DNA from: Streptomyces mangrovisoli
Lineage (GTDB): Bacteria; Actinomycetota; Actinomycetes; Streptomycetales; Streptomycetaceae
Reading direction: 5' to 3'
NCBI RefSeq assembly: GCF_000974985.2
Contig: NZ_LAVA02000042.1
Span: 1 to 64,000, forward strand
Length of the DNA stretch: 64,000 nucleotides
Positions 50,921-57,018 of the stretch are shown piece by piece. Position numbers and translations under genes: made by a program. Position 1 is the first letter of the stretch; each line of letters opens with the position of its first letter. The notes under the pieces were generated by a model. That model made no database searches. It was not told the origin of the DNA and worked only from the letters and a program-made list of their open reading frames with translations.

Positions 50921-51295
50921 TCAGTCGTCCAGGAAGTCCCCGTCCACGTACACCCACGCCCCGCCGACCCGCTCGAACCGGCTGCGCTCGTGCAGCGACC
51001 CGCCCCGCCAGGACGCCCGGAACGTCACCGTGCCGGCGTCGTGGAACGCGGAGCCCGCCTCCGCGGCGAGGATCGCGAGCCCCGTCCAGCGCGTGCCCGC
51101 ATCCAGCTCCAGCCGCTCCGGCCGGGTCCGCGGATGCCAGGTCCGCAGCAGATAACCCGCGTCCCGCTTCACGAACGCGCTGTACCGCGACCGCATCAAC
51201 GCCTCGGCGGTCGGCGCGGCCGCCGCCCCGGAGTGATAGCGGCCGCAGCACGCCTCGTACGCAGCGGGAAGACCACAGGGACACGTCACAGCCAT
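50921..51295 (-). CDS. YchJ (UPF0225) family SEC-C zinc-motif protein
   Basis: A 124-residue protein with TCPCGLPAAYEACCGRYH (SEC-C-like zinc ligands), ALMRSRYSAFVKRDAGYLLRTWHPRTRP, and a C-terminal NTF2-like half, as in YchJ. Function is poorly known. ATG 51295 begins 4 bp after the M1 peptidase stop, so it is the last gene of the synthetase-peptidase operon, although it may only be carried along. Confidence 0.9.
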   Translation of the reverse strand: MAVTCPCGLPAAYEACCGRYHSGAAAAPTAEALMRSRYSAFVKRDAGYLLRTWHPRTRPERLELDAGTRWTGLAILAAEAGSAFHDAGTVTFRASWRGGSLHERSRFERVGGAWVYVDGDFLDD

Positions 51296-51299
51296 GCCC

Positions 51300-52775
51300 C
51301 TATTCTGCTTCGGCGCCGGGATCCCTTCGCGCCCGGCCCCGCGCGGTACCGAGCCGCGCCCGCCCCAGCAGGCCCGGCCGGGCCTGCGGCTCCGGCGGCG
51401 CCACCGGCTCCGGCTCCGCCACGGGAGCGGGGGCAGGAGCAGGGGCAGGGGCAGGAGTGGGCAGCGGAGGCAGGGCCGCGGAGTACACCCACGCCGCGAA
51501 CAGGTCCTCCACCGAGTCGTTCGCGAAGCGGGCCACATGGGAGACGAACGTCGGGGTGGTGACCGTGCCGCCCCGGTGCAGCCGGGTCCAGCTCTGCAGC
51601 ATGCGGAAGAACGCCTCGTCGCCCAGCGCGCAGCGGATCGCGTGGACCGTCACCCCGCCGCGCTCGTAGAGCCGGTCGTCGAACATCGACTTGCGGCCCG
51701 GGTCCGCGAGGCGCAGATCCTGCGGCTGCGACGACAGCTTCCGGTGCGCCAGCGCCGCGCGCTGCTGCGCCGTGGCGCCGCCGGACCGCTCCGACCACAG
51801 CCACTCGGCGTACTTCGCCAGCCCCTCGTTCAGCCAGATGTGCCGCCAGTCCGCCACCGACACGCTGTTGCCGAACCACTGGTGCGCCAGCTCGTGCGCC
51901 ACCAGCCGCTCCGAACCCCGCACCCCGTCCACGTGGTTGGCGCCGAACACCGACAACCCCTGTGCCTCCACCGGCACATCGAGCTCCTCCTCCGTCACGA
52001 GCACCGCGTACTCGTCGAACGGATAGGGCCCGAACAGCTCCTGGAACAGGTCCATCATCGCCGGCTGACGCGCGAAGTCCGCCGAGAACCGCGGCAGCAG
52101 ATGCGCCGGGATGTGCCCGTGCTGCACCACCCCGCCCGGACCCGGATCGCCCAGCAGCACCGTCTGGTACTTGCCGACCGACAGCCCCACCAGATAGCTC
52201 GACGTCGGCGCCGACTGCTCGTACACGTACGTCGTCGTCGACGCCTTCGTGGTCCGGGTCAGCAGCCTGCCGCCCGCCACCACCTGGTACGCCGACGGCG
52301 TCGTCACCGACAGCAGATACGCCGCCTTGTCCGACGGGCGGTCGTTGCACGGGTACCACGACGGCGCACCGACCGGCTGGCTCGCCACCAGCGCCCCGTC
52401 CGCCAGCTCCTCCCAGCCGAGGCCGCCCCAGGGGCTCGCCACCGGTTTGGGATTGCCCGACCAGTGCACCTCCACCGTGAACGCCGCCCCCGCCCGCAGC
52501 GCCTTCGCCGGGGTGATGCGCAGCCGGCCCCCGCGATGCGTGTAGCGCGGCTGACGGCCGTCCACCCGCACCCGGCCGATCTTGAAGTCGGCCAGGTTCA
52601 GCTGGAACTCCGTCAGCGCCGCCCGCCCCGCTATGGCGAAGATCCGTGCCGTCCCCGACAGCCGGTTGGGACCGGGGCGGTAGTCCAGCGCGAGCTCATA
52701 GCGGTGCACCCGGTAGCGGGTGTCGCCGTTGGCCGGGAAGTACGGGTCCAGCCCCGCCGACTGCTGAACGGTCAC
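51300..52775 (-). CDS. M1 family zinc metallopeptidase
   Basis: A 491-residue aminopeptidase. H294-E295-x2-H298 and E317 (HELAHQWFGNSVSVADWRHIWLNEG) are the gluzincin zinc ligands. The N-terminal saddle domain starts YFPANGDTRYRVHRYELALDYRPGPNRLSG. The exopeptidase motif GAMEN appears as AQGLSVFG. A Pro-Ala repeat (PTPAPAPAPAPAP) and basic tail end the protein. The GTG at 52775 follows AGGGAGC; there is no signal peptide. The synthetase gene ends 70 bp upstream. In poly-lysine producers a Zn aminopeptidase degrades the polymer, so this may be the matching degradation or self-protection enzyme. Confidence 0.9.
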   Translation of the reverse strand: MTVQQSAGLDPYFPANGDTRYRVHRYELALDYRPGPNRLSGTARIFAIAGRAALTEFQLNLADFKIGRVRVDGRQPRYTHRGGRLRITPAKALRAGAAFTVEVHWSGNPKPVASPWGGLGWEELADGALVASQPVGAPSWYPCNDRPSDKAAYLLSVTTPSAYQVVAGGRLLTRTTKASTTTYVYEQSAPTSSYLVGLSVGKYQTVLLGDPGPGGVVQHGHIPAHLLPRFSADFARQPAMMDLFQELFGPYPFDEYAVLVTEEELDVPVEAQGLSVFGANHVDGVRGSERLVAHELAHQWFGNSVSVADWRHIWLNEGLAKYAEWLWSERSGGATAQQRAALAHRKLSSQPQDLRLADPGRKSMFDDRLYERGGVTVHAIRCALGDEAFFRMLQSWTRLHRGGTVTTPTFVSHVARFANDSVEDLFAAWVYSAALPPLPTPAPAPAPAPAPVAEPEPVAPPEPQARPGLLGRARLGTARGRARRDPGAEAE

Positions 52776-55800: not shown

Positions 55801-56718
55801 CTCGCGGCCCTCGGTGACCAGGCGCTGCGTCAGCTCCGGCGGGCACGCCTCACCGCCGAAGATCAGCAGCCGCACCTCGGCGAGCGTCTCCGGCTCCCAC
55901 AGCGCCGCCAGCGTCGGCACCGTCGACACCACGGTGATCTCCTGCTCGACCAGCCAGGGCCCGAGGTCGGCGCCGCTGCGCACCCGCGAGCGCGGCACCG
56001 GCACCAGACAGGCGCCGTACCGCCAGGCCAGCCACATCTCCTCGCAGGACGCGTCGAAGGCGACCGAGAGACCCGCCATCACCCGGTCGCCGGGCCCGAT
56101 CGGGTCCTCGGTCAGGAACAGCGCGGCCTCCGCGTCCACGAACGCGGCGGCGCTGCGGTGGCTGACCGCCACACCCTTGGGCCTGCCGGTGGAACCGGAG
56201 GTGAAGATGATCCACGCGTCGTGCTCGACGCCGGGGCGCCCGGCGGGCACCGTCGAGGGCTCCTCGACGGTGAGCGCGTGCTCCGCGCCGATGACCGCGC
56301 GGACCCGGGCCTCCCCGAACACCAGGGCGGCCCGCTCGTCGGGGTCCTCGGCGTCGACGGGGACATAGGCCGCGCCCGCGGCGAGCACCGCGAGGATCGC
56401 GACATAGAGGTCGGTGGTCCCGGACGGCACGCGCACCCCGACCCGGTCGCCGAGGCCCACGCCCGCGCCGGCCAGCCGCCGCCGCAGCCGCTCGACCTCC
56501 GCGGCCAGCGCCCGGTAGGTCAGGCGGGTGGTGCCGTCGTCGAGGGCCAGTTCGTTCGGGTACGACCGTACGGTCGCGTCGAAGACGTCGACGAGGGTGC
56601 GCGGCGAGGCCGCGGGACCCGCGCGGAAGCAGGCGGAAAGGGCGGACTGCGCAATGGGCTGGGTAGCGAACTCGTCGTCGAGCAGGCCGAGAGCACCGCT
56701 CTCCTGAATGGCTGCCAT
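52846..56718 (-). CDS. Pls/PosA-family NRPS (epsilon-poly-L-lysine synthetase-like)
   Basis: A 1290-residue membrane-bound synthetase, close to Pls (about 1.3 kb residues). The adenylation domain (~30-480) has [28 protein letters not shown] (A4, D binds the amino group), [43 protein letters not shown] and [12 protein letters not shown]. A thiolation domain follows with carrier Ser S551 ([14 protein letters not shown]). From ~600 on come six hydrophobic helices separated by three left-handed beta-helix-like soluble domains (hexapeptide patterns such as [25 protein letters not shown]), the condensing part in Pls. No condensation or thioesterase domain exists. It makes homopoly(amino acids) by family; lysine is not proven here. 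ATG 56718 starts it. Confidence 0.92.
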   Translation of the reverse strand: [1290 protein letters not shown]

Positions 56719-57018
56719 CAGGTCCTCGCGTCTCGTTCCCGGTGCCCCGGGGCGCTGGCGGGCCCGCAGGTCTGCCTGGGGTTGTCCGGCGTCAGCTCCG
56801 TAACAAGCCGGAAATTTTATACGACGCTAGCCTCGGCCCCTTCTGTCGGCGATGCGAGGAACCCGTCCGGGGGACCGCCGGACGAGGGGGCGGGCCGCGC
56901 TGACCTCGGCACGGCTGCGGGAGACGAGAGATGGGCCACAGATGGCCGTACGGCGACCGGAGGACGGCGACCCGGCGGAACCGCACGGTGGCACACCGCG
57001 ACGAAGCACCGCGACGAA
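56719..57018. other. Upstream region of the synthetase operon
   Basis: Three hundred bases without coding signal between the synthetase start and the tRNA terminator. The only AT-rich pocket is 56810-56822. The segment 56831-57018 holds nothing I can identify except a repeated GCGACGAA near 57000-57020. Confidence 0.5.
56814..56821 (-). promoter_or_regulatory. Possible -10 element of the synthetase operon
   Basis: On the minus strand TATAAAAT, striking in this GC-rich sequence, ~95 bp before the ATG at 56718. No convincing -35 is seen, so an activator or alternative sigma may be needed. Confidence 0.35.

Follow-up and report, generated by a model that had tools for sequence, protein, structure and literature searches.

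What do two long, adjacent genes on the minus strand of a Streptomyces mangrovisoli contig make, and do they form one system? The window considered here is a stretch of 64,000 nucleotides (contig NZ_LAVA02000042.1, positions 1 to 64,000) from a genome of 9.17 Mb in 199 contigs, and the genes in question encode a synthetase, designated Pls, and the M1 metallopeptidase that follows it. Taken together, the evidence indicates that the pair is very probably an operon of the pls-pldII type for epsilon-poly-L-lysine. In the proposed mechanism, the adenylation (A) domain of the synthetase would activate L-lysine with ATP and load it onto the carrier (T) domain, the membrane-bound C-terminal domain would link the lysines iteratively by isopeptide bonds between carboxyl and epsilon-amino groups, and the metallopeptidase would hydrolyse the polymer, thereby limiting self-toxicity, and may also influence chain length. 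An earlier note on this DNA had suggested a Pls/PosA synthetase with a co-encoded M1 enzyme for trimming or protection, and this suggestion is supported by the family model, the substrate pocket, the tree, the gene order and the published biology of pls and pldII. Publications are cited by their PMC identifiers.

The synthetase and its predicted monomer

The Pfam families detected in the Pls protein (E <= 0.001) were AMP-binding (residues 46-369), PP-binding (524-586), a hexapeptide repeat and AMP-binding_C; condensation and thioesterase families were absent from this list, and the alignment places the carrier-domain serine in the protein. Residues 609-1285 match TIGR02353, the Pls/PosA model, with 821.9 bits, about double the cut-off of 423.1, and no other match in the genome exceeds this cut-off. 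Transmembrane-like (TM) segments (KD19 >= 1.6) were located at residues 605-636, 843-868, 872-914, 1082-1109 and 1108-1137; a further hydrophobic segment at 101-124 falls within the A domain and is not interpreted as a TM helix. In the first TM pair, helix two (649-668) is visible solely in the mean of the 108-row alignment at a threshold of 1.4, so that the count of six helices depends on the mean and the model of the family. With this qualification for the sixth helix, Pfam, TIGR02353 and hydropathy bear out the layout A-T-(TM/soluble)x3 without condensation or thioesterase domains that had been read from the letters alone. Other genomes of the genus contain a second class of TIGR02353 proteins, frames of 812-997 amino acids that match the carrier and terminal part of Pls alone, and in each of the eight loci inspected (L176-L180, L183-L185) they adjoin another gene, which matches the A and T domains.

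The best match of Pls in the PDB was 7wew, the A domain of an epsilon-poly-L-lysine synthase (663.7 bits, 6.1e-198), followed by chains of linear gramicidin synthetase at 419.9 bits. The A domain of the window protein shares 66.9% identity over the aligned residues with 7wew, a structure from Streptomyces albulus. The residues lining the pocket were assigned through the Stachelhaus positions, and they spell DAESIGTVVK (D222, A223, E226, S265, I286, G288, T310, V318, V319 and K498), a code identical to that of 7wew. This assignment is consistent with the pocket code of the ornithine enzyme PosA, printed as DMEHNGTVSK (PMC10522769). According to the same source, the second pocket position is Ala in lysine enzymes, Met in ornithine enzymes and Phe in the PDAP/PDAB enzymes, with mutation as support (PMC10522769). 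Because the pocket is identical to that of 7wew and has Ala at position 2, L-lysine is the predicted monomer. The earlier note had proposed the extraction of these specificity residues and had considered the monomer unreadable from the sequence; the extraction returned a lysine-type code, and the second statement did not hold.

Of 102 aligned rows, among them the window and 7wew, 100 have the same code and two (L151, L159) have DAESVGTVVK; this agreement is partly one of choice, since the rows were collected by their similarity to the window protein or to 7wew. Among 12 further family members, nine have DAESIGTVVK and three have codes starting with DFE (L166, L170 and L174, with DFECLSVVTK, DFEYLGTVTK and DFECLSVVSK), and these three probably use shorter diamino acids. 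L170 has a nearby M1 match with 36% identity. A literature search on the pocket code as a word found no paper.

The relationships of the synthetases were examined with a FastTree tree of 113 rows, in which the three DFE rows served as outgroup, 7wew was the sole characterised row and L073, an N-terminally truncated frame, was dropped. The window protein and 7wew fall in a common clade of 109 rows with support 1.0, outside which are the three DFE rows, by rooting, and L168, a member of the Pls/PosA family that shares 40% identity with the window protein and has no M1 match nearby. Within it, 7wew belongs to a clade of 14, called here lineage A, and the window protein to a clade of 59, called lineage B, each with support 1.0. 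The clade uniting lineage B with relatives from other genera has a support of 0.773, which leaves the deep branching order and the direction of change unsettled. For lineage A, 23 loci were considered, 13 taken from the tree and 10 (L195-L204) placed by identity alone.

The peptidase and its export signal

The M1 enzyme (491 amino acids) contains the HELAH motif and the downstream Glu, and its start lies 70 nt beyond the pls stop, the distance downstream of the 1290-residue protein that had been stated before. The pairing of the two genes is constant among near relatives: the M1 match starts 0-200 nt past the pls match in 80 of 80 named relatives, which belong to Streptomyces, Kitasatospora, Actinacidiphila, Lentzea, Amycolatopsis and other genera. 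These 80 rank highest among 591 confirmed loci and are therefore biased to close relatives. Further, five genomes contain both lineages in one copy each (L150/L151, L152/L153, L154/L155, L156/L157, L158/L159), and in all five the Pls of the window's lineage has its own M1 enzyme; in three of them another M1 lies beside the other Pls.

This arrangement resembles that of S. albulus, where pls and pldII share an overlap of 4 nt and form one operon (PMC4361855). PldII is described as the main epsilon-poly-L-lysine-degrading enzyme, self-protective and located outside the membrane, and its repression led to longer polymer and lower tolerance (PMC9223678). The published length of pldII, 1404 bp (PMC9223678), is matched by the M1 open reading frame of 467 amino acids that follows pls in L146-L149. 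The S. albulus and window loci have in common the gene order, the domain layout, the 7wew pocket and an M1-type peptidase directly downstream; they differ in lineage, in the 70-nt gap of the window against the 4-nt overlap (PMC4361855), and in the N terminus of the peptidase, as described below. The synthetase-peptidase pair of C. variabile is likewise comparable by its published description; its Pls was shown by heterologous expression to make epsilon-poly-L-lysine, the other three synthetases compared with it had a different gene context, and the Pls of K. aureofaciens is listed as experimentally confirmed (PMC8117764).

In 37 of 89 relatives outside lineage A, the first ATG or GTG in frame with M1 precedes the end of the pls stop codon by 13 nt. 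The GTG at the corresponding site of the window is out of frame with M1 and opens a mini-frame of 28 codons. As the stop of this mini-frame overlaps the M1 start codon (GTGA), coupled translation of pls and the M1 gene may still occur.

The peptidases of the two lineages differ at the N terminus. An (S/T)RRxhh motif followed by a hydrophobic stretch is present in the M1 enzyme of all 20 lineage-A loci that have one; the 12-residue mean after the arginine pair was 1.47-1.93 in nine of these enzymes, and the stretch was judged by eye in 11. The motif is read as a twin-arginine-like signal and, because lineage A is a single clade, its gain or loss represents one evolutionary change and not 20 independent ones. 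Outside lineage A, RRxhh was found in the N-terminal region of none of 90 M1 proteins, that of the window included, and two of the 90 (L092, L109) have a hydrophobic stretch above 1.6 within the first 60 residues. Hydropathy alone does not distinguish the window enzyme, with an N60 maximum of KD19 of 0.83, from nine lineage-A enzymes, with 0.74-1.59; the arginine-pair motif does. A threshold of KD12 > 1.8 after the arginine pair was dropped as an indicator of export, since just three of nine lineage-A enzymes pass it. The absence of the RRxhh motif suggests that the window enzyme is probably intracellular. No published signal-peptide difference between Pld enzymes was found in a search without most subscription journals, and the lack of the motif in the window enzyme appears to be a mildly new point.

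Points against the reading and rival explanations

A number of observations weigh against a pls-pldII-type operon for epsilon-poly-L-lysine. The window Pls belongs to a separate lineage and has 57.8% identity to L146, a full-length Pls of the S. albulus type. L168 has the lysine code yet branches outside the clade of the window and 7wew. The partner gene is missing beside some members of the family: an M1 match lies nearby in eight of the 12 further full-length members (7/9 with DAESIGTVVK, 1/3 with DFE codes), and in three of the 23 lineage-A loci (L152, L158, L202) there is no M1 in the stretch beside pls. Identity between the window M1 and nine M1 enzymes of lineage A is 42.5-45.4%, and the window enzyme has PVEAQ where the four lineage-A enzymes shown have PVENQ. 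If the numbering of L146 holds, the window enzyme has Arg and Asp in place of Thr194 and Glu281, two PldII residues singled out by docking (PMC9223678), and equivalence to PldII at the residue level is therefore not demonstrated. In addition, a review attributes the diversity of chain lengths to the synthetase instead (PMC9205021), and an aminomutase-like gene on another contig, below its family cut-off, leaves beta-lysine a slight possibility as monomer.

The rival that survives best is that this strain does not express the locus or obtains no product from it, which is possible rather than probable and is compatible with an operon for epsilon-poly-L-lysine. It draws on C. variabile, which has a functional pls and gave no epsilon-poly-L-lysine under the conditions used (PMC8117764), on the frame change in the region of the M1 start, and on the -10-like element of the window. 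This element, TATAAAAT, occurs once in the window (56814-56821, minus strand) and is one base away from the TACTAAAAT that most close relatives have in a conserved promoter/leader; GTCGTACTAAAATTTCCGGCTTGTT is also found upstream of pls in most of them. The exact TATAAAAT stands upstream of pls in one of 58 lineage-B loci (L050 omitted), that of the window itself, and this is its one occurrence on both strands of the 862,844 bp of these loci. The unusual element that the earlier note had seen ahead of the synthetase is thus present, and its special role was rejected on account of this single occurrence one base off TACTAAAAT. Both long frames are intact, the motifs tested are present and the remainder of the promoter/leader is conserved, all of which argue against a silent locus.

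The leader DNA is conserved across 32 aligned loci, picked for known pls start coordinates and a visible element, and contains an inverted repeat, GGCTTGTT...GGACAACC. In a strict search of 101 loci, window counted, 32 had the repeat upstream of pls, and none of these were among the 11 loci of the S. albulus type that the search covered. A regulon was rejected because the sole exact copy of the pattern in the genome is the one at pls, a search that diverged copies would escape. A structured RNA was also rejected: the folds of four leaders were no better than shuffled sequences (z -0.33, -0.23, -0.70 and -0.48), covariation was weak, with a double change in 5 of 18 predicted pairs and a covariation term of -1.12, and Rfam gave no match beyond the tRNA. 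Five of the six rows grouping closest to the window (L043, L046, L153, L155, L157) have a shorter leader, which indicates that the leader is not essential. The region would be a promoter with a possible, putative operator.

A second rival gives the M1 enzyme the role of a general intracellular aminopeptidase that has nothing to do with the polymer and is located beside pls by chance or for the sake of expression. Its nearest solved relatives, among the best 60 of 117, are general M1 enzymes (Deinococcus 6a8z and leukotriene A4 hydrolase), the genome has 13 M1 matches, that of the window included, the partner is missing beside some family members, and the enzyme has no twin-arginine motif, in contrast to the reported location of PldII outside the membrane (PMC9223678). 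This explanation is nevertheless unlikely in view of the pairing in all 80 named relatives, across many actinobacterial genera, of the five two-lineage genomes, where the window-lineage Pls has its own M1 in all five and another M1 accompanies the other Pls in three, and of the precedent of PldII.

It is very improbable that the synthetase makes another homopolymer, such as delta-poly-ornithine, poly-diaminobutyrate, poly-diaminopropionate or epsilon-poly-beta-lysine, even though these are products of one and the same protein family (PMC10522769). The delta-poly-L-ornithine synthetase PosA of A. baumannii belongs to the same A-T-membrane domain family, but it has Met at position 2 and, according to its description, no obvious cotranscribed gene, in contrast to the Ala and the M1 partner of the window locus; the PDAP/PDAB synthetases have the TIGR02353-type terminal domain and Phe at position 2 (PMC10522769). 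The entire window pocket equals that of 7wew, and the three DFE relatives tested branch outside the window group, though serving as outgroup. Epsilon-poly-beta-lysine is an unlikely product: the one gene that speaks for it, the genome's single match to TIGR00238 (aminomutase family), scores 151.2 bits against a cut-off of 199.2 and lies on another contig, and the published beta-lysine enzyme adjoins its aminomutase and groups with PDAP/PDAB and not with Pls (PMC10522769). Chance as a source of the features of the locus is excluded by the domain scores.

Surroundings, frequency and biological meaning

The features of the locus are collected in Table 1. In the order of transcription on the minus strand, the promoter/leader is followed by pls, the M1 gene and a YchJ-like gene, and the span of 50921-56821 given for the system by the earlier note was exact.

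Table 1. Coordinates of the locus features within the window.
Feature	Position	Strand	Details and basis
pls, nonribosomal peptide synthetase (NRPS)-like homopolymer synthetase, A-T-(TM pair/soluble domain)x3	52846-56718	-	1290 aa, ATG start
Adenylation domain of pls, about residues 15-509	55192-56676	-	Alignment to 7wew
Carrier (T) domain of pls, residues 524-586	54961-55149	-	PF00550
Membrane-bound polymerisation domain of pls, three TM pairs	52864-54894	-	TIGR02353, hydropathy
Two-domain M1 zinc metallopeptidase, predicted PldII-type	51300-52775	-	GTG at 52775, stop ending at 51300; PF01433, HELAH and NEG motifs
28-codon mini-frame, start within the pls 3' end, stop over the M1 start codon (GTGA)	52772-52858	-
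Promoter/leader: -10-like TATAAAAT, then inverted repeat GGCTTGTT...GGACAACC	56717-56823	-
YchJ-like gene, 124 aa	50921-51295	-	ATG at 51295; PF17775, 1.5e-23
tRNA-Leu(gag) upstream of pls	57058-57143
M20 peptidase gene	57321-58667		Strand opposite to pls

The YchJ-type gene had been counted with the system. Its presence after the M1 gene is confirmed, and its membership is rejected: a YchJ gene lies near pls in just 24 of the 80 named relatives, at most 600 bp from the M1 match in 19 and more than 1.5 kb away in four, and it is probably a mere neighbour outside the system. On the other side of pls, the tRNA-Leu(gag) and the M20 peptidase gene were also found in 28 of the 80 named relatives, which places the operon at a conserved site within the close clade. 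Farther upstream (58789-60340, plus strand) there is a pair of open reading frames with NVCGNTISVIGLLNPAFGN-type repeats, the second with a sorting-signal-like C-terminal tail; they are presumably chaplin-like.

The locus is ordinary, one more example of a well-known and common Streptomyces gene pair. At E <= 1e-100, the 7wew A domain has a match in 168 of the 392 genomes examined for the window's genus, and a sample of 150 genomes from its family contained 101 with such a match. In a published survey, epsilon-poly-L-lysine, with 730 clusters, was among the most recurrent known Streptomyces clusters, and NAPAA was the cluster class used for such polymers (PMC11734326).

The differences at the N terminus of the peptidase raise the possibility of two designs of Pls loci, one in which the peptidase would be exported by twin-arginine translocation (Tat), in the S. 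albulus-type lineage, and one in which it would be cytosolic, in the lineage of the window and the other relatives. This is a tentative reading, plausible on the distribution of the motif and a little short of an even call. If the cytosolic location is correct, trimming or turnover of the polymer would take place ahead of export, in the course of it, or once the polymer has re-entered the cell. Export of the peptidase would then represent one change, confined to the industrial lineage, and a large part of the knowledge about PldII would not transfer to the commoner Streptomyces loci. Epsilon-poly-L-lysine serves industry as a food preservative, and the tolerance of its producers and the setting of its chain length are only partly understood. 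An intracellular peptidase in the common lineage would mean that self-protection there differs from the S. albulus model.

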